From: a virus | IMG/VR virus record: IMGVR_UViG_3300006737_000067 | Location: 1-39,439 of that record | Reading direction: 5' to 3' (one strand) | DNA length: 39,439 nucleotides | Part shown: one piece after another, positions 1 to 38,239 of the stretch | Layout of the letters: every line of letters begins with the position of its first letter | How positions within the stretch are numbered: the first letter of the stretch is position 1 | The notes under the pieces: model-generated | Told to the model about the DNA's origin: nothing | What the model saw: only the letters and a program-made list of their open reading frames with translations | Databases searched by the model: none | Made by a program: the position numbers and the translations under genes

Positions 1-1590
1 AAGACTGGAGCAGATGCTAAAAAAATGTTCACAGATAAAGTTGTCCCGATATCCGTTAACTATCCGTTTTTCTTCAAGCCGATCCAGGATGGTATGGATC
101 GTCCTAAGACCGAACTGGCATATAGAGTCCCAGCTTCAAAACTTACTAGACGTAAACTAGATGACAATGTTAAGTTAAAAGAATTACAAGGTCTTGACAC
201 GACTATAGATTGGAAAAATACAGGTGATAACTCTTACGATGGTGAAAAGTTAAAGCTATTAGCCCATGATGAAAGTGGTAAATGGGAAAGACCTGACAAC
301 ATATTAAACAACTGGAGAGTTACAAAAACTACATTAAGACTAGGACGTAGGATCGTAGGTAAATGTATGATGGGCTCAACTTCAAATGCATTAGATAAAG
401 GTGGAGACAACTTCAAGAAATTATATTATAATTCAGACGTTACAAAAAGAAATAGAAACGGACAAACAAGTAGCGGACTCTATTCTCTTTTCATCCCTAT
501 GGAATGGAACTACGAAGGATTCATGGATTCTTTTGGATCACCTGTATTCATTACGCCAAAAAATAAAATCCTCGGAATTGATGGTGCGCCAATTGATATT
601 GGAGTCATCGAGCACTGGGAAAACGAGGTTGATGGATTAAGAAACGATAGTGATGGTTTAAATGAATATTATAGACAATTTCCTAGAACTGAACAACACG
701 CTTTCAGAGATGAAAACAAAAACACCTTATTCAATTTAACTAAGATATACGAGCAGATAGATTATAATGAAGAAATGGCTAATGAAAAATCTGTTACAAG
801 AGGAAATTTTGGCTGGAACAACGGTATGATTGATACTAATGTTACATTTTATCCTAATAAAGACGGTAGATTTTTAATATCATGGGTTCCACCTAAAAAC
901 TTACAAAACAGTGTAATAGTAAAGAATGGTATTAAGTACCCTGGTAATGAGCATATTGGAGCGTTTGGCTGTGATAGTTACGATATATCAGGAACTGTTG
1001 ATGGTAAAGGATCTAAAGGCGCACTACATGGATTAACTAAGTTTTCAATGGAAGATGTGCCGCCAAATCACTTTTTTTTAGAATACATATCAAGACCACA
1101 AACGGCAGAAATATTTTTTGAAGACGTATTAATGGCTTGTCATTTTTATGGTATGCCTATACTAGCAGAAAATAATAAACCTAGACTATTGTATTACTTT
1201 AAACGTAGAGGATACAGAGGTTTTAGTATGAATAGGCCAGATAAAGTGTGGAATAAATTATCAGTAGCTGAAAAAGAAATAGGTGGAATACCTAACTCTA
1301 GTGAAGATATTAAACAAGCACACGCTGCGGCAATAGAACATTACATAGAGAATTACGTAGGTAGAATTGAAGACGGAAATGGTGACATGTATTTTCAAGA
1401 AACATTAAGTGATTGGGCTAAGTTCAATATAAATAATAGAACAAAGCATGATGCTTCTATTAGTTCTGGACTAGCTCTTATGGCTTGTAATAAGAATAGA
1501 TACAGACCAAACATGGAAATTACTAAACAACCTATGTCGCTTACTTTTAAAAAATATAATAACACAGGATCTATTTCACAAATAATATAA
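1..1590 (+). CDS. terL: Terminase large subunit, 5' truncated by window edge
   Basis: This is the DNA-packaging motor subunit that cuts concatemeric phage DNA and pumps it into the prohead through the portal. The frame is open from base 1 (KTGADAKK precedes the first ATG at 25), so the N-terminal ATPase domain with the Walker motifs is missing and only about 529 residues are visible. The C-terminal RNase H-like nuclease is recognisable: an FGCDSYDISG motif supplies the first metal-binding Asp (codon at 973), and a TKHDASISSGLAL motif near the end supplies the last Asp (codon at 1450). The stop TAA at 1588-1590 is followed after 3 bases by the portal gene, the usual terL-portal order. The motif style matches terminases of crAss-like and other Bacteroidetes podoviruses; that comparison is from memory. 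The ATG at 25 is internal and should not be taken as the true start. Confidence 0.88.
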   Translation, partial: KTGADAKKMFTDKVVPISVNYPFFFKPIQDGMDRPKTELAYRVPASKLTRRKLDDNVKLKELQGLDTTIDWKNTGDNSYDGEKLKLLAHDESGKWERPDNILNNWRVTKTTLRLGRRIVGKCMMGSTSNALDKGGDNFKKLYYNSDVTKRNRNGQTSSGLYSLFIPMEWNYEGFMDSFGSPVFITPKNKILGIDGAPIDIGVIEHWENEVDGLRNDSDGLNEYYRQFPRTEQHAFRDENKNTLFNLTKIYEQIDYNEEMANEKSVTRGNFGWNNGMIDTNVTFYPNKDGRFLISWVPPKNLQNSVIVKNGIKYPGNEHIGAFGCDSYDISGTVDGKGSKGALHGLTKFSMEDVPPNHFFLEYISRPQTAEIFFEDVLMACHFYGMPILAENNKPRLLYYFKRRGYRGFSMNRPDKVWNKLSVAEKEIGGIPNSSEDIKQAHAAAIEHYIENYVGRIEDGNGDMYFQETLSDWAKFNINNRTKHDASISSGLALMACNKNRYRPNMEITKQPMSLTFKKYNNTGSISQII

Positions 1591-28898: not shown

Positions 28899-30761
28899 TT
28901 AAGTAATTTCACAAGCACCACCAGCGCAAGCAAGCTCACCACTAAGATCAGTGTTGTCTTCAGTTTCGATAACATGTTCTAAATTTATATCTTTTAAATG
29001 TTGTAACCTATTTATGTAGGTTCCTTCATCAATGTCCTCGAAAGGGGCTTGAGTATATGTTCCACCATCAAATGGTAATACAGATAAACCATTATAGTGT
29101 TTTCTGTTATCCCACATCCATTCACCTGCGTCTTCCCACTCTTCAGCTTTTAAACTGACCGTAGCAGAAACATTGTGAGTGTTAGATCCTTTTCTATGAC
29201 CAGGTGCAACCCACTCTGTAGCAACCTTCTTTATACGTTCAAGTAATTGAAAAGGTGATTCAGTTCTAAGTATAGATCCAGCCGGAGCTTTCTGTGGTAT
29301 ACTAATTACAGCTGTGTCATGAGGTCTGAAAAACTCATCTTCAACCAATAATGGATGGTTCTCAACTAAGTATTTGTATATACTTTCGTTTTTACCAACC
29401 CTGATCCTACGCAGATAATAATCATTGTGCCATGCGTGAATACCAGATGAGGTTCCTAGCGCCAGAGATGTTGTCCCTGCAGGCTTCACGGTTGTGCATC
29501 TTGCAGCGTTATTAATCCCAATCGCTTTGGCGACTCTTGCGTTTTCTCGTTTTACTAATTGAGCGGCTTTCTGCATGTCGTATCCTAACACCCTGCCAGA
29601 TCCTATACCCGTCATCGACACTCCTATTAATGCTTCTTTTTCTGTTGTTTCTTTCCATACGTCTCTTAAGTAGTGAAAGTCCGTATATCCAGCTTGTAAC
29701 GTTCCTATAAACGCAGCTGCTTTCACTCTGTTGTTTAACTCATCTTGTGATTCAATATCACTAGCATTTACTTCACATAGGTTACAAAACTGATATGGTC
29801 GTAAAGCTATTTCACAACAAGGGTTTGTACCCCAGTCTTTGTCGTTGTTAAAATATATTCCAGGTTCACCTGCTCCTGATAGTTCTACACGTTTCCACAG
29901 ATCCATAAAAAACTCTTTAGTTATTTTATGTCTCATAAGTACAGCAGAGTTATTAGCTCTACCTCTTTGTGGGTTTGTTTCCCACCAATTTCCAGACTTC
30001 GCTGAGATCATCTCGTCGTCGTCCGCTGAGAACAAGCTTATAAGAGCTGCTCGACGAATCCCACCAGCTAAGACAGCGTCTGCAATATGGCAAACTATAT
30101 CGTGTGTTTCTATAGTGGAGAGCGTATCTGTTTCCTCCTTTGAATCTAAGACTCCTGTTATTTTTACTATACATTCTTTCAGTGGTTGAGGTCCAGGTGC
30201 TTTACCACCAGACGTTACTAACATTGCACCCTTAGGGCGTATATCAGAGTAGTCAAACTCTATACGTGAACTTCTTTTGTCACCAAGATATGATTTCATT
30301 AATACTTTAATAGCATCAGCCCAACCTTCAATTGAGTCACCTATTAAAAATCTTCTAGTTCTTTTTTCATAAGGTTTACTAATCATAGGTAGTTTGTCAA
30401 CGTGATGTTTCTGTACTGAGTAACCTACACCAGTACCACCTAATAATAAAAACATTATCTCATTAAACGAATCAACACTATCGATAGGTAGATATGCGCA
30501 ATTATATACCCTATTAGGACTAATCTCAATAGGTTTACCACCAAATTGTAGCGATCGCATAGAAGGTAAAACTTTCTTTTCATAAACTAATTTATATGTT
30601 TCTTCGATCTGGTCTTTTAAATCAGGATACTTTTTAATATGCATGTCTTTATTTCTAGTAACAAGTTCATGCCATGTTTCTCTTCGGTTTAATTTTGGTA
30701 AGTACTTAGCGTACTTCATGTAAACGGTAATATCACTTAGTATCTGATTCGATAGCTCCAT
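28899..30761 (-). CDS. nrdJ: Class II (adenosylcobalamin-dependent) ribonucleotide reductase, monomeric
   Basis: It reduces ribonucleoside triphosphates to deoxyribonucleotides for phage DNA synthesis, using a radical from vitamin B12 coenzyme and so needing no oxygen and no second subunit. At 620 residues it is shorter than the Lactobacillus enzyme (about 739). The visible signature starts with YNCAY with Cys88, the first active-site redox Cys. NPCCEIAL gives Asn313, radical Cys315 and Glu317, and the partner Cys326 lies in FCNLCE. The C-terminal shuttle pair is Cys612/Cys617 in CAGGAC, with the same spacing as the Lactobacillus pair. KPAGTTSLALGTSSGIHAWH (about 426-445) is a phosphate-binding loop typical of the class. 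It overlaps the upstream 72-residue gene by 29 bases and is last but for a tiny ORF in the leftward operon. The host or surroundings must supply cobalamin. Confidence 0.93.
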   Translation of the reverse strand: MELSNQILSDITVYMKYAKYLPKLNRRETWHELVTRNKDMHIKKYPDLKDQIEETYKLVYEKKVLPSMRSLQFGGKPIEISPNRVYNCAYLPIDSVDSFNEIMFLLLGGTGVGYSVQKHHVDKLPMISKPYEKRTRRFLIGDSIEGWADAIKVLMKSYLGDKRSSRIEFDYSDIRPKGAMLVTSGGKAPGPQPLKECIVKITGVLDSKEETDTLSTIETHDIVCHIADAVLAGGIRRAALISLFSADDDEMISAKSGNWWETNPQRGRANNSAVLMRHKITKEFFMDLWKRVELSGAGEPGIYFNNDKDWGTNPCCEIALRPYQFCNLCEVNASDIESQDELNNRVKAAAFIGTLQAGYTDFHYLRDVWKETTEKEALIGVSMTGIGSGRVLGYDMQKAAQLVKRENARVAKAIGINNAARCTTVKPAGTTSLALGTSSGIHAWHNDYYLRRIRVGKNESIYKYLVENHPLLVEDEFFRPHDTAVISIPQKAPAGSILRTESPFQLLERIKKVATEWVAPGHRKGSNTHNVSATVSLKAEEWEDAGEWMWDNRKHYNGLSVLPFDGGTYTQAPFEDIDEGTYINRLQHLKDINLEHVIETEDNTDLSGELACAGGACEIT

Positions 30762-30951
30762 GTTCTTTATCTTCTTTAACTTTTTCTTTTACTTTACCTA
30801 AAGCATTATCATATTCTGACATTTGCTTTATCGTTTCTAACGTACCAAAAGATACGGTTCTTAAATAATCTAGCTCTTGTATCATGTGTTCCATAACATT
30901 AGTCAAGGACTGGATTTTATTTTTCATTTCAATTAAACTTTGTTCTTTCAT
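30733..30951 (-). CDS. Small coiled-coil protein, function unknown
   Basis: This 72-residue, charged, predicted fully helical protein (MKEQSLIEMKNKIQSLTNVM onward, ending KEDKEHGAIESDTK) has heptad-like hydrophobic spacing. It shares four bases (ATGA) with the stop of the oxygenase gene upstream and overlaps the reductase start by 29 bases, so translation is probably coupled. It could be a small partner or regulator of the reductase. No family is recognised. Confidence 0.65.
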   Translation of the reverse strand: MKEQSLIEMKNKIQSLTNVMEHMIQELDYLRTVSFGTLETIKQMSEYDNALGKVKEKVKEDKEHGAIESDTK

Positions 30952-31511
30952 TTATAAAACATTACAAATACTTTTCTTCCTTTTTCCCAACTTTTATTAG
31001 GATATTTACTGTGAAAATAATTAGATGGATAAGACACTAGTCTATTTTTTTTATAACCAATTACAGTATTAAGTTTCCAGTTGTCTAATTTATTAGACTC
31101 ATTTAAAATTAAGTCATCATATTTTTTTGAAGTCAACTGATCAACTGGTAGACTACAACCTAATTCTTTATGTTCCCACAAAGCAGTACCATTTAACTCA
31201 TCTAAACCAGGTTCAGACATGTATAGAACTATAGCTCTTGAAGGTAGTTGTCCATTTATTATAGAGTCACAATGTATTCTCCAGTCTGTATCTAATTCAT
31301 CAGTAGCTATTCTAAAGAAAGATAATATATTTTCTATTCTTTTATTTTCTATTACAGATATTTTATCACACATCCAAGCAGTAAAATCTTCTGGTGGATT
31401 CATTATCCAAAATTTCTTATCGCCCGTATCTACTTCTTTAAAATTAACTAAGTATTTATTTAGTGCTTTTAAAATATTATTTCGTAAGAAGTTATCAATT
31501 ATGTATATCAT
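30948..31511 (-). CDS. 2-oxoglutarate/Fe(II)-dependent oxygenase family protein
   Basis: This 187-residue protein matches the double-stranded beta-helix oxygenase pattern. The iron ligands appear to be His80 and Asp82 (WRIHCDS) and His167 (NYFHSKYP), with Arg179 (KGRKVFVMF) placed to bind 2-oxoglutarate. The GTALWEH and RLVSYPSNYFHS context resembles prolyl-hydroxylase-like phage and marine bacterial members. The substrate cannot be deduced: protein, small-molecule and nucleobase hydroxylation are all used by this superfamily. Its stop (TGA) overlaps the next start in ATGA, and its start overlaps the 55-residue ORF upstream by 17 bases. Its place amid nucleotide genes makes a DNA- or nucleotide-linked role possible. 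Confidence 0.75.
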   Translation of the reverse strand: MIYIIDNFLRNNILKALNKYLVNFKEVDTGDKKFWIMNPPEDFTAWMCDKISVIENKRIENILSFFRIATDELDTDWRIHCDSIINGQLPSRAIVLYMSEPGLDELNGTALWEHKELGCSLPVDQLTSKKYDDLILNESNKLDNWKLNTVIGYKKNRLVSYPSNYFHSKYPNKSWEKGRKVFVMFYK

Positions 31512-32334: not shown

Positions 32335-32401
32335 AGTAATATAGTATTATTAATATTAATGTTGCAGCTAAATTAGCTATTATTATTCCTAGTGTTGTCA
32401 T
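32315..32401 (-). CDS. Possible 28-residue single-helix membrane protein
   Basis: ATG at 32401 opens a frame ending with TAA at 32317-32315. It encodes MTTLGIIIANLAATLILIIL, then YYYGKERD: one clean hydrophobic helix and a charged C-terminus. It overlaps the end of the MazG fusion by 29 bases and the start of the following gene by 20, exactly bridging a 38-base gap between them. The pattern fits a small phage membrane protein (holin-like, inhibitor or uncharacterised), but an A/T-rich sequence can produce such a peptide by chance. Confidence 0.45.
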   Translation of the reverse strand: MTTLGIIIANLAATLILIILYYYGKERD

Positions 32402-33224
32402 CTTTTACAAATGTTCCGTTAACCATTTTACCGGTGCGTTTTTTTATAACATCATATGCTGAATCAATACAATGTTCTATAGTTACTCCGCCTAAATGAG
32501 CCATGTTAGTTAAGACAACAACCATATCACCTATAGCATCTACAAATTCATCTTTATCATCTTTTAACACTGCTCTACCAAGCTCACCAGCTTCTTCCAT
32601 TAGTTTGCAGAACTGAGTTTTAGTATCACCTTTAGTGTATAAACCTCTTGAACCTGCCCAGTCTCTAATTTTTTGAAACCTATCATCATCGACCCATGCA
32701 TGACCGTTTTGTTTAGCTGGTCTATCTTTTAATTGATCATAAAACAATTGAGCTTCATTTTTAGCTTCATTTAAGAATGCTTCGTAGAAAGCTTTATTGT
32801 ATATATAAGATCTTTTCTTATTAAACATGGATGTTGATGCATTTTGCATTATCCAGTCTATTGTTTCTTTAGTTACTTCAAATTTACCATGGATTGTTTC
32901 CCATGTTAATCCTATTGAGTCCATCAATCTACCTTTTAGTTTGTTTAAAGGTACAGGAAATGTTGAGGTTTGTTCGGTTGCGTTTACTTTCATTTTAAAT
33001 AATTGTTTATAAGGTTTAAGGTCGACTTTATAGCCGTAAGACTTTTGAAGTTCTAACTCGCGGCTCGATATATAATCGATGTCATTGCTTTGATCTAGAA
33101 CTTCGTATTCGTCTAGGGTATACCCCTGTTGTTGTGTAACTCTTTTATTAAGATCACGTGTTTCACCTATCTTTTTACCCGGTATGTGGTATAAAAAGTA
33201 TGTTATATTACCATCCATATTCAT
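32373..33224 (-). CDS. GIY-YIG-like domain fused to MazG-type NTP pyrophosphatase
   Basis: This is a 283-residue two-domain protein. Residues about 7-65 resemble a GIY-YIG nuclease domain: ITYFLYHI in place of the GIY strand, KKIGETRDLNKRV for the YIG strand and Arg, and Glu56/Glu58 in SSRELELQ for the metal ligand. The linker to about 170 is unassigned and helical. Residues about 180-275 are MazG-like, with EExxE at Glu210, Glu211 and Glu214 (KLMEEAGE) and ExxD at Glu226 and Asp229 (DEFVDAIGD). These residues bind magnesium and hydrolyse dNTPs to dNMP plus pyrophosphate. The gene follows, with a 17-base overlap, the thymidylate-synthase-family gene, so it may supply its monophosphate substrate. 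The GIY-YIG call is weaker than the MazG call. Confidence 0.72.
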   Translation of the reverse strand: MNMDGNITYFLYHIPGKKIGETRDLNKRVTQQQGYTLDEYEVLDQSNDIDYISSRELELQKSYGYKVDLKPYKQLFKMKVNATEQTSTFPVPLNKLKGRLMDSIGLTWETIHGKFEVTKETIDWIMQNASTSMFNKKRSYIYNKAFYEAFLNEAKNEAQLFYDQLKDRPAKQNGHAWVDDDRFQKIRDWAGSRGLYTKGDTKTQFCKLMEEAGELGRAVLKDDKDEFVDAIGDMVVVLTNMAHLGGVTIEHCIDSAYDVIKKRTGKMVNGTFVKDDNTRNNNS

Positions 33225-33924
33225 CAGCTCTTGATTGTGCTGGGCCTTTCTCTTTAGAACTCAAGAACTTACCCAGATCTTTATTATATAAATGTAAATT
33301 ATGTGCAAAATGAAAATAAGATCCTAATTCATAATCTGTCTCCTCTGCAACTAATAATTGTAATTGTGCAAAACAATATTGATCATTACAGAAACCGTAC
33401 CAGAGATCATTAGATCGCATCGTAACACACATATTCAGATGATTATTAACAACTGTGAATTGTATTGCGTACGTGCATGGAGTATCATACTTATATCTGC
33501 CTCTTTCTTTACCATCGTAAATTGATATTGTAGCTTGTCTAGTGTTAGGATCACGTCTTAGCATTTCTATAACTTTATCTAACTGGTAACCTCTTTCCCA
33601 CTGCCAACCATAATTAGAGTTAACATCACCATGATCGTCTGCCATACGTTTCCATATAGCAGGTACTTTACCGTATATCTCTCCTAATGTCTCTATGTTT
33701 CTATCACCTGATAGATACCATCTCCATTCAGCTTCTGCATAATCTTCTTTCCAGTTACGCCATGATTCATTTATAGTCATTTGATCTGGGTTCTCCATTT
33801 CAAATCCTATATTAAACAAAGCTTTTGTCCCAGCAAAGTCTTGACCATAGTGCTCTACGCATTGATACCAATACTGGAAAGCTTCATTAGCATTTCTAAA
33901 TTTATTTGCGAACGTTTTTATCAT
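33208..33924 (-). CDS. Thymidylate synthase family enzyme, predicted dCMP-specific (hydroxymethylase-like)
   Basis: It uses methylene-tetrahydrofolate to add a one-carbon group to C5 of a pyrimidine deoxynucleotide. Numbered from the ATG at 33924 (238 residues), the catalytic Cys150 lies in DTPCTYAIQF. MRSNDLWYG follows, with Arg170, Ser171, Asp173 and Gly177, and the HLY motif corresponds to the nucleotide-sugar-binding HxY. All align without gaps to E. coli thymidylate synthase from Cys146 onward. At +31 the E. coli Asn177 is replaced by Asp181, as in T4 dCMP hydroxymethylase (Cys148, Asp179). The likely substrate is therefore dCMP, not dUMP; whether the product is hydroxymethyl- or methyl-dCMP cannot be told. 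An in-frame ATG at 33975 is possible, but it lies deep inside the upstream gene, so the later ATG starting MIKTFANKFRNANEAF is preferred. Confidence 0.83.
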   Translation of the reverse strand: MIKTFANKFRNANEAFQYWYQCVEHYGQDFAGTKALFNIGFEMENPDQMTINESWRNWKEDYAEAEWRWYLSGDRNIETLGEIYGKVPAIWKRMADDHGDVNSNYGWQWERGYQLDKVIEMLRRDPNTRQATISIYDGKERGRYKYDTPCTYAIQFTVVNNHLNMCVTMRSNDLWYGFCNDQYCFAQLQLLVAEETDYELGSYFHFAHNLHLYNKDLGKFLSSKEKGPAQSRADEYGW

Positions 33925-34162
33925 AATAAAATTTATATAGTTCCATAACTTTAGGCCATAATTCTGTTGGACCATAAGTATTTGGACTTAATTGTTTTCT
34001 TCCGTTTACATTTACCTCTATCCAACAGGTCTTGTTTACAAAACCTTTACCGCAAGGTACGGAGTATATTTTAATACCATGTTTTATACACCATTGGTAT
34101 GCTTTAGTGTTTGCTTTATCCCATAGTGGAGGTTTCCAGTCTATCTTTTTGCCTATTCCCAT
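33902..34162 (-). CDS. Hypothetical protein, 86 residues
   Basis: This small basic protein (MGIGKKIDWKPPLWDKANTK at the start, ending YKFYYDKNVRK) has several Trp residues and Cys at about 25, 37 and 46. No family is recognised and no membrane segment is present. It overlaps the primase-helicase end by 10 bases and the preferred start of the thymidylate-synthase-family gene by 23, so it is an integral member of the operon. The composition and codon use match its neighbours. A nucleic-acid-binding role is possible but unsupported. Confidence 0.65.
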   Translation of the reverse strand: MGIGKKIDWKPPLWDKANTKAYQWCIKHGIKIYSVPCGKGFVNKTCWIEVNVNGRKQLSPNTYGPTELWPKVMELYKFYYDKNVRK

Positions 34163-35865
34163 GGCATTTTTTCTTCTAATTCAGGTTGTACGTGAGGTAC
34201 AAAACATCCTGACCTTGGTTCCCACGTAAAGAATGCTTCTGCTCCGTTTTCCCCGAGGTTTTGAAACTTACATTTAAGTATCTTGACTTTAGTTGTTTTA
34301 GCTTCATAGTCTCTGTGTACAAGCAAACCATGATATGACGCGTCGTACCATTCACCACCACCTTTAATGTTGTACATTGTTGGTTCTTCAATTTTACCAT
34401 CTTGCGTTTTATACATTTTAGTGGGATGGGCTACTATAAATACTAGCACATCGTATTTCTTAGCAAAGGTTTCAATCTTAGTTAGATACTCCATTGTGTA
34501 CCTATTAACGTCTTCTGTTTTACAGTCAACATCTCTAACTTTGTTAAATGGATCGATAACTAAACATTTAATACCTTTACGTTTTACAAGCTCAGCTCCT
34601 TTACGTAATACAGACTCAAGAGTGTAACGTTCCATATCAATAAAGAAAAAGTTATCATTAACGTGTTCAGCTACTTGATTCCATTTGTCTCCGCCAATAT
34701 CGCCTTTATCAGGCATATCACCCCATACTTTACGCATTAACTTATGTGCATGTAAATATGTTGGTGCGTTTTCAGGAGATGCAAAAGCTGTTTTCCATTC
34801 ATATTCTTTATTATAACCTACAACCATTTGATCTACAAAATCTGACTTACCTGAACTAGGTATACCAGTTACAGTAATAAACTGCTTAGTATATGTACTA
34901 AAAATTGAATCAAAATTATCAAGGCCAATAGTATGCCCACGTTTAAAACCGTTTCTAACAAAGTCCGTAATTTCATCTTCTATATCTCTAAATGTTGTAA
35001 CGTTTTCTAACGGTACAGGTTTTGCATTTGTTATACGTGACAATAGCTCTTTAGCTGAGTACTTTAATAAATATTCATTAGCATCTTTGCAATCGTCAAA
35101 TGTAACTAGATAACAAGTCTCAGCTCCAAGTCTACGTATTAATTCAGTCTGTAGGGCTTGTCCCGGTGCGTCTGAATCAACTGCAATAATGATCTTAGAC
35201 TTATCCTCAAAATAATCAATACAATTATCTAGATAGTCTAAATTGTTTGAGTTTAACGTAGCTCCATTTGGAACTGATATTGCATTTGTAATTCCTGCTT
35301 CATGTAAAGCTAAGACGTCCATCTCACCTTCAACAATAACACAATAATCATAACCTACAATATTATCTATATTATAAAATACTTTTTCAGCTCCTTTATA
35401 AAGCTTAAAGTTTTTTCTACCATCTCTGTATTTAACATTAGTAAGTTGTCCACCTACATAATAATTAAACTGAATAGTATTCTCGGCTTTGCCGGTTTGA
35501 GGCATATATTCTTTACCAACACTAACTTTTAATTCATCTAGTGTATCTTTAGATATTCCTCTAGTCTTAAACCACTCTAGCGTTTTATCAACTACAAGAT
35601 CAACCTTTTTAATTTCAGGCATAACATATTCACGTTCAGCTTTGCCTTTACGTTTGTATGTGTGTAATTGAAAAGTGCTATCACAGTTGTGGCAAGTACC
35701 GAGACCACGCTCCCAATCATAGCTAGCACATTTTGCTTTTCTATTCTCAGGTTTCCTAGAAGAGGAACACAGGGGACAAGTCCCCTGAGATTTTCCTACG
35801 TCTAAGCCGTGCTGATTAAAGTTTTCAATTTGAAAACCATTGATCTCTATTTCTTCGACTTGCAT
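34153..35865 (-). CDS. DNA primase-helicase (T7 gp4-like)
   Basis: This 570-residue replisome protein makes RNA primers and unwinds the fork. An N-terminal zinc-ribbon has Cys30/Cys33 (CPLC) and Cys58/Cys61 (CHNC), with Cys46 between. The Toprim primase has Glu179 in VEGEMD and Asp230/Asp232 in AVDSDAPG. The RecA-like hexameric helicase follows, with Walker A GIPSSGKS (334-341), Walker B CLVIDPFN (Asp438) and sensor His480 in VAHPTKM. The tail is acidic (PELEEKMPWE), as in T7 gp4, whose acidic C-terminus contacts the polymerase. The length equals T7 gp4A (566). It ends with TAG and overlaps the next gene by 10 bases. The matching DNA polymerase is not in this window. Confidence 0.93.
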   Translation of the reverse strand: MQVEEIEINGFQIENFNQHGLDVGKSQGTCPLCSSSRKPENRKAKCASYDWERGLGTCHNCDSTFQLHTYKRKGKAEREYVMPEIKKVDLVVDKTLEWFKTRGISKDTLDELKVSVGKEYMPQTGKAENTIQFNYYVGGQLTNVKYRDGRKNFKLYKGAEKVFYNIDNIVGYDYCVIVEGEMDVLALHEAGITNAISVPNGATLNSNNLDYLDNCIDYFEDKSKIIIAVDSDAPGQALQTELIRRLGAETCYLVTFDDCKDANEYLLKYSAKELLSRITNAKPVPLENVTTFRDIEDEITDFVRNGFKRGHTIGLDNFDSIFSTYTKQFITVTGIPSSGKSDFVDQMVVGYNKEYEWKTAFASPENAPTYLHAHKLMRKVWGDMPDKGDIGGDKWNQVAEHVNDNFFFIDMERYTLESVLRKGAELVKRKGIKCLVIDPFNKVRDVDCKTEDVNRYTMEYLTKIETFAKKYDVLVFIVAHPTKMYKTQDGKIEEPTMYNIKGGGEWYDASYHGLLVHRDYEAKTTKVKILKCKFQNLGENGAEAFFTWEPRSGCFVPHVQPELEEKMPWE

Positions 35866-37489: not shown

Positions 37490-38239
37490 TTACAGGTAAT
37501 CAAGCACTTGCGAGTGATCCACGTTTTCTATTAATTTTTCTACAGCCTGCTTTTTTAGCTCTGAAACTCTTACATAAGCTGACACACCTTTTATGTTTAA
37601 TCCTGTTGCTATTTCATTAGCAGACCATTTTGGACCTGTTAAACCATAGCTTTTTTCAAGAACAAATAGTTCGTTCCATTCAAGATGTTTAACTAGTAAG
37701 CTCATTATATAAGCATTTAGTAAAGTTTCATTGTATGGGTCTGACTTATCAGGTATTTGATATACCATATCTTCATCGTCTTGCTTAGCATCTATTGATA
37801 AGAATATAGAATTAAAAAACATTCTAACCATTTTTTCATCTTTACCTTTTCGCATTTCATTTAATTTATGCTCAGGTATACGCATTGTACCTCTGTTTCT
37901 ATCTATTTCCCTACGTATTCCACCACGTATTCTTTTAGCTAGAAAAGATTTTAAAGTTTTTTCTACGTCTTCAGATTCAAATAATTTATTTCTGTCTATT
38001 TTATCTACAGCTCTACACAATTGTACACTACCTTCTTGTATTATATCCATTATAGACATAACACCTGAGGCTTCTTGACTAGTAGCAAATTTTCTACCTA
38101 TGTTTTCTACTAATGGTAAAAATATTATTTTAAGTTCTTCTGGAGTATAATCTACAAATCTTTTTTGTTTTACACCCTGTATAGAAAGCTTAACATCCTC
38201 TTTATACCTTACATAGTTTTTTATATTATACTTTTTCAT
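37490..38239 (-). CDS. Sigma-70-like RNA polymerase sigma factor
   Basis: This 249-residue protein likely redirects host RNA polymerase to phage promoters. Region 2 spans about residues 38-112, including MSIMDIIQEGSVQLCRAVDK (polymerase clamp contact and -10 region) and FLAKRIRGGIRREIDRNRG. A short region 3 follows around IPEHKLNEMRKG. Region 4 occupies about 175-240, with a helix-turn-helix at KWSANEIATGLNIKGVSAYV and RVSELKKQA. Region 1.1 is missing, as in alternative sigma factors. No phage RNA polymerase is seen in the window, so this is the best candidate for controlling the late block. It overlaps the upstream HTH gene by 14 bases; a 43-base gap separates it from erf. Confidence 0.82.
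   Translation of the reverse strand: MKKYNIKNYVRYKEDVKLSIQGVKQKRFVDYTPEELKIIFLPLVENIGRKFATSQEASGVMSIMDIIQEGSVQLCRAVDKIDRNKLFESEDVEKTLKSFLAKRIRGGIRREIDRNRGTMRIPEHKLNEMRKGKDEKMVRMFFNSIFLSIDAKQDDEDMVYQIPDKSDPYNETLLNAYIMSLLVKHLEWNELFVLEKSYGLTGPKWSANEIATGLNIKGVSAYVRVSELKKQAVEKLIENVDHSQVLDYL

Follow-up and report, generated by a model that had tools for sequence, protein, structure and literature searches.

The window analysed here (39,439 nt, positions 1 to 39,439 of the IMG/VR virus record IMGVR_UViG_3300006737_000067) carries a gene of the thymidylate synthase family, which raises the question of whether its product makes dTMP or acts on dCMP and, in the latter case, which modified base it forms. 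The open reading frame begins at an ATG at position 33924 and codes for 238 residues; an alternative in-frame ATG at 33975 would give a longer form of 255 residues. The protein matched the Pfam thymidylate synthase family PF00303 (E=2.8e-26), and PHROGs also placed it in thymidylate synthase families. A previous inspection of the DNA letters (the sequence-only reading) had stated that routine annotation would miss a dCMP enzyme at this locus. This held for Pfam and PHROGs, but not generally: against the NCBIfam thymidylate synthase equivalogs the protein scored no more than 78 bits, missing every cut-off (108–427), and its nearest isolate-phage proteins already carry the annotation deoxycytidylate 5-hydroxymethyltransferase. 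Both T4 dCMP hydroxymethylase (dCH, gp42) and the CMP hydroxymethylase MilA were among its best PDB matches. Overall similarity was nevertheless rejected as a classifier of the enzyme, since the bacterial thymidylate synthase 6auj scored level with T4 dCH. The main features of the locus are collected in Table 1.

Table 1. Features of the window considered in this work (coordinates in the window; all on the minus strand).
Feature	Coordinates	Strand	Basis
Predicted dCMP 5-hydroxymethylase, thymidylate synthase superfamily	33208..33924	-	PF00303; PDB matches to T4 dCH and MilA; residue pattern
Codon of catalytic Cys150 (T4 Cys148)	33475..33477	-	Alignment
Codon of Asp181 (T4 Asp179, E. coli Asn177), predicted dCMP-specificity residue	33382..33384	-	Alignment
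Codon of Asp147 at Cys-3 (T4 Asp145, water-activating in hydroxymethylases)	33484..33486	-	Alignment; role from PMC6400193
Ser103-Asn-Tyr105 (T4 Ser94-x-Tyr96), second part of the hydroxymethylation signature	33610..33618	-	Alignment; PMC6400193
283-aa protein whose C-terminal domain is a MazG/PRA-PH all-alpha NTP pyrophosphohydrolase, candidate dCTP pyrophosphatase	32373..33224	-	PF01503 (E=2.6e-6), PF03819 (2.6e-5), phrog_715 (2e-30)
Ribonucleotide reductase of class II (adenosylcobalamin), resembling triphosphate reductases, same gene block	28899..30761	-	phrog_367 (2e-128); nearest NCBIfam TIGR02505 RTPR, below cut-off
Primase/helicase, conserved upstream neighbour, same gene block	34153..35865	-	phrog_239 (5e-87); upstream in 54 of 59 relatives

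The active site was examined in an alignment of 21 sequences, with T4 gp42 and E. coli ThyA among the references and T4 numbering matched at every site. The sequence-only reading had counted Arg, Ser, Asp, Gly and Asp at +20, +21, +23, +27 and +31 from the catalytic Cys. The alignment bore this out: Arg170, Ser171, Asp173, Gly177 and Asp181 follow Cys150 with ungapped spacing, and the six residues fell exactly on T4 Cys148, Arg168, Ser169, Asp171, Gly175 and Asp179. The last of them, as had also been proposed, lies on T4 Asp179 at the site where ThyA has Asn177. The comparison covered 15 active-site positions of T4, and the window enzyme was identical at 14 of them (Glu60, Ser94, Tyr96, Arg123, Asp145, Cys148, Thr149, Arg168, Ser169, Asp171, Gly175, Asp179, His216 and Tyr218). 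Among the phosphate-binding arginines, Arg129 (T4 Arg123) was kept and Gln130 replaced T4 Arg124; Gln is also found there in the SPO1 and Vi01 hydroxymethylases. The folate-handling residues Glu66 (T4 Glu60) and Asp173 (T4 Asp171) were present, and Thr151 occupied the site of ThyA His147. Only 25 residues followed the Tyr213 site, compared with 28 in T4 and 55 in ThyA, and the thymidylate synthase C-terminal sealing tail was absent.

The 177/179 position is known from mutagenesis to be the cytosine/uracil switch (PMC6400193, PMC8670742, PMC5175136). The ternary structure of the T4 enzyme revealed a hydroxymethylation signature consisting of an Asp at Cys-3 plus a Ser-x-Tyr motif, and the T4 change D145N abolishes 5hm-dCMP formation (PMC6400193). 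The window enzyme has both parts of this signature close to the +31 Asp; they are stronger marks than that Asp and were not part of the sequence-only reading. The dCMP specificity predicted by that reading is supported by the Asp at the mutagenesis-defined site together with the other T4-like active-site residues.

Enzymes of known chemistry differed at a small set of positions (T4 numbering). ThyA and the RB69 thymidylate synthase have Asn179, Leu145, Pro94 and His149. The SPO1, M6, Vi01 and phiW-14 enzymes, which we take to be dUMP hydroxymethylases, have Asn179 (displaced by one residue), Asp145, Gly or Ala at 94, and Asn149. The AXL1 enzyme, chosen to represent the group of the 5mC phage Xp12, of which AXL1 is a close relative, has Asp179, Asn145, Ser94 and Pro149, with 61 residues past the Tyr218 site. 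T4 gp42 has Asp179, Asp145, Ser94, Thr149 and a short tail, and the window enzyme is the same at each. In this alignment, Asp145 is the mark of hydroxymethylases for either base and Asp179 that of cytosine, and the window enzyme has both. The gene thus very probably codes for a T4 gp42-type deoxycytidylate 5-hydroxymethylase that depends on folate, a reading in which we infer both the dCMP substrate and the hydroxymethyl product from sequence.

In a maximum-likelihood tree, the clade of the window enzyme joined T4 gp42 and the enzyme of Bacteroides phage BF503P2 (split 93/91, not starred; the T4 branch is long). The dUMP hydroxymethylases formed a clade of their own (99/93), and the AXL1 enzyme grouped with the thymidylate synthases (99/98); Asp177 therefore probably arose separately in the AXL1 lineage. 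An AlphaFold2 model of the window enzyme (mean pLDDT 88.4, pTM 0.85) was used in a structure search, in which MilA was the best PDB match, followed by T4 dCH and thymidylate synthases. Asp181, placed by alignment, is predicted to sit in the cytosine pocket. MilA (PDB 5B6D, 5JNH) shares the fold and the Asp for cytosine, but it has Lys133 and Ala176 for ribose where the window enzyme has Arg and Ser, as in deoxyribose enzymes (PMC5175136), which argues for a substrate of the deoxyribose type.

The sequence-only reading had relied on the +31 Asp and had proposed that the phage may build hydroxymethyl- or methylcytosine into its DNA. That residue argues for dCMP but does not by itself settle the product, because the RB69-type 5-hydroxy-dCMP enzyme also has it; Asp-bearing enzymes of known chemistry yield three products, namely 5-hydroxymethyl (T4), 5-methyl (Xp12 group) and 5-hydroxy (RB69 type, with an FAD-bound structure). 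A dCMP methylase of the Xp12 type, which would lead to 5-methylcytosine in DNA, would account for the Asp, as this is present in AXL1 and a single N-to-D change is enough to turn a thymidylate synthase into a dCMP methylase (PMC8670742). However, at Cys-3 AXL1 has Asn, the residue that eliminates 5hm-dCMP formation in T4 D145N, and its long tail and its position in the tree set it apart from the window enzyme, which has Asp147 and a short C-terminus. The AXL1 genome also has a DHFR gene nearby, as a methylase would need because methylation consumes THF, while no DHFR was seen among the window ORFs examined. A methylase is thus very unlikely, and of the two products proposed earlier it is the hydroxymethyl one that stands. 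The other dCMP chemistry to be considered is that of a flavin-dependent 5-hydroxylase forming 5-hydroxy-dCMP, which Mosigvirus phages make with a member of the thymidylate synthase superfamily (PMC13390438). The RB69 homologue was rejected as a control for dCMP hydroxymethylases because it proved to be of this type: its sequence is near-identical to that of 9iqc, which the structure search returned with the same fold and which is a riboflavin-dependent monooxygenase structure containing dCMP and FAD. The model superposed on 9iqc better than on T4 dCH (Foldseek TM-score 0.79/0.80 versus 0.69), and the RB69 protein has Asp at the same site. The sequence-profile match, in contrast, was weaker for 9iqc (7.7e-15) than for MilA (2.8e-24) or T4 dCH (4.2e-23). 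Further, five T4 sites differ in the RB69 enzyme (PDB 9IQC), with Thr for Ser94, Glu for Asp145, Asn for the pterin-contacting Asp171, Val for Gly175 and Phe for Tyr218; as far as a single RB69-type exemplar allows the comparison, the window enzyme has Ser, Asp, Asp, Gly and Tyr at these sites, as in T4. A flavin-type hydroxylase accordingly has a very low probability.

An ordinary thymidylate synthase converting dUMP to dTMP and merely tolerating the Asp would agree with the Pfam and PHROGs labels and with the lack of ThyX in six related virus records, so that this gene would be the sole thymidylate source that the phage itself encodes. It would have to be reconciled with Asp at 177, Thr in place of His147, Asp at Cys-3, the missing tail and the failure to reach any NCBIfam cut-off, and it is extremely improbable. 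A dUMP hydroxymethylase was rejected, given that the window enzyme has Asp rather than Asn at the discriminating site and Thr rather than Asn after the Cys, and belongs to a different clade. Taken together, the T4-type residues tell apart the enzyme classes whose chemistry is known.

Conservation was analysed in the best 80 of 542 stretches encoding relatives that were found by a pattern scan of IMG/VR. All of these 80 had Asp at +31, and all kept the Asp at Cys-3, both named residues of the Ser-x-Tyr motif, and the catalytic Cys with the Thr following it. The scan seeds included these motifs, so for most relatives the counts are biased; however, seven of the viral loci matched neither motif seed, and all seven kept the +31 Asp, the Cys-3 Asp and the Ser. 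The same three residues were kept in seven of seven relatives from bacterial bins (found with the motif seeds). Since every one of the best 80 viral relatives keeps the Asp, including the seven found independently of the motif, these comparisons exclude a chance origin of this residue. The use of the residue at position 177 as a reporter of phage cytosine modification has been published (MetaGPA, 2021, PMC8670742; T4dCH, 2019, PMC6400193), and the window enzyme is a well-supported addition to a known enzyme type, in a large uncultured clade.

The gene coding for the MazG/PRA-PH protein overlaps the predicted hydroxymethylase gene by 17 nt, and its EExxE...ExxD motif is intact. A gene of this kind lies immediately downstream in 73 of the 76 relatives with room to tell, with the full motif in 59 of the 73. 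PRA-PH and thymidylate synthase domains co-occurred on contigs with modified cytosine in the MetaGPA study (PMC8670742), and a role of this neighbour as a dCTPase is plausible. No resemblance to the pyrophosphohydrolase of AXL1 was detected by BLAST. Matches of the middle part of the protein to designed Pizza proteins in the PDB were taken as spurious. Two other genes of the window, both on the minus strand, were noted. One (30948–31511) codes for a 187-residue protein with an HxD...H...R pattern like that of 2-oxoglutarate/Fe(II) oxygenases and a DUF6445 match just under the cut-off; the PHROGs label 'minor coat protein' looks wrong for it, and among the 80 viral loci a single one had the gene, but it is present in locus L134. 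The other (37490–38239) codes for a sigma-factor-like protein (phrog_351, E=2.5e-13).

Among known systems, T4 gp42 (PDB 1B49, 6A9A) has only ∼24% identity to the window enzyme, with which it shares a short C-terminus and all compared active-site positions save Arg124. T4 encodes the dCTPase gp56 as well as glucosyltransferases, whereas the window virus has the adjoining MazG/PRA-PH enzyme and no T4-like glucosyltransferase was found in it. The closest isolate sequence (44% identity) was WAX07047 of Bacteroides phage BF503P2, annotated as deoxycytidylate 5-hydroxymethyltransferase; the motifs GFCNDQYCF and DTPCT are common to both proteins. The gene context differs, as BF503P2 has dut and a second Asp-bearing homologue (L082, 17109–17915). 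The latter has Leu at the Glu60 and Gly175 sites and may have another chemistry or be a degenerate copy. The MetaGPA thymidylate synthases from modified-cytosine contigs resemble the window enzyme in having Asp at 177, an altered residue 147 and a PRA-PH neighbour; however, a carbamoyltransferase or dCMP deaminase is often included in those contigs and neither was seen here, and modification was measured there, while it is predicted here (PMC8670742). Two more isolate-phage proteins drew attention. That of Agathobaculum phage AB434P2 (L119, 3838–4500) is labelled deoxyuridylate hydroxymethyltransferase, yet it shows the dCMP pattern Asp179, Ser94 and Thr149. In Lactobacillus phage ATCCB (L083, 7971–11026), a dCMP-type hydroxymethylase is followed by genes with the labels beta-glucosyltransferase and UDP-galactopyranose mutase, which suggests sugar-decorated hmC.

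The window is contained, at 99.97% identity, in a 63.5-kb IMG/VR contig (G001, loci L086–L089) that encodes an identical protein. The ends of this contig show a 115-bp imperfect overlap, and it is probably near complete. The portal and primase of the virus relate to those of Flavobacterium elemo phages and Cellulophaga phages, and by its sequence the virus is an uncultured marine podophage related to flavobacterial phages. None of five isolate or assembled relatives (MW202828, elemo, Calle_2 and phi19:3 by the portal; phi10:1 by the primase) has a thymidylate synthase family gene, so the modification gene appears to be confined to the uncultured branch. The contig carries a primase/helicase, a ligase, an ERF annealing protein and an exonuclease. 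A family-A (PolA) DNA polymerase was not found in it or in two relatives, and no plausible remaining ORF over 500 residues in the contig was a candidate for another polymerase. A GroEL-like gene (L088, 12472–14276, minus strand) was observed beside a small co-chaperonin-like gene, and a further GroES-like gene lies apart from this pair (529–1122, minus strand).

If the enzyme is a dCMP hydroxymethylase, the following pathway may be proposed. The ribonucleotide reductase, which is most similar to triphosphate-type enzymes, would provide dCTP, which the adjoining MazG/PRA-PH enzyme would probably convert to dCMP, both removing the unmodified precursor and supplying the substrate. Cys150 would attack C6 of dCMP, with Asp181 holding and protonating the cytosine and methylene-THF donating the one-carbon unit; Asp147 and Ser103/Tyr105 would position a water molecule such that 5-hydroxymethyl-dCMP is formed instead of a methyl group. 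Kinases of the host or of other origin would lift hm-dCMP to hm-dCTP, although a dNMP kinase like T4 gp1 was not recognised, and the replisome would put hm-dCTP into the phage DNA. As no phage polymerase was found, this replisome would have to be, and probably is, that of the host. DNA bearing hmC should resist many host nucleases.

The hydroxymethylase might also serve another or a partial use, leaving virion cytosine mostly unmodified, an outcome that overlaps with the preferred reading of the enzyme. It would fit the negative results for the kinase and the polymerase just mentioned, and no relative of the T4 or ATCCB glucosyltransferases was found in the window clade. The gene is, however, fixed in place beside a dNTP pyrophosphatase in relatives, and 5hm-dCMP is not known to us to have a role in salvage. 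Bare 5hmdC is, moreover, carried by T4gt DNA (PMC8670742). Mostly unmodified virion DNA is on balance unlikely. A more specific proposal, which we put forward tentatively and consider rather doubtful, is that a large, uncultured marine podophage lineage, probably with flavobacterial hosts, replaces cytosine with bare 5-hydroxymethylcytosine by means of a two-gene hydroxymethylase/MazG-type dCTPase operon and the host replisome, with neither a phage DNA polymerase nor a sugar transferase. For the flavobacterial or marine phages of this group, literature searches turned up no report of hydroxymethylcytosine. Such a lineage, if real, would differ from T4 in both the supply and the use of the modified base.

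Incorporation of modified cytosine into the DNA, a trick known from T4, is probable for this uncultured marine phage and for hundreds of related sequences. The residue set Asp179, Asp145, Ser94 and Asp171/Gly175/Tyr218, read against controls of known chemistry, sorts the superfamily by sequence into makers of dTMP, 5hmU, 5mC, 5hmC and 5-hydroxyC. If the present reading is correct, marine virus sequences labelled 'thymidylate synthase', several hundred of them at the least, would make hydroxymethylated-cytosine precursors, which would bear on how well the DNA of these viruses is sampled by enzymatic library methods and on the restriction and CRISPR systems to which they are susceptible.
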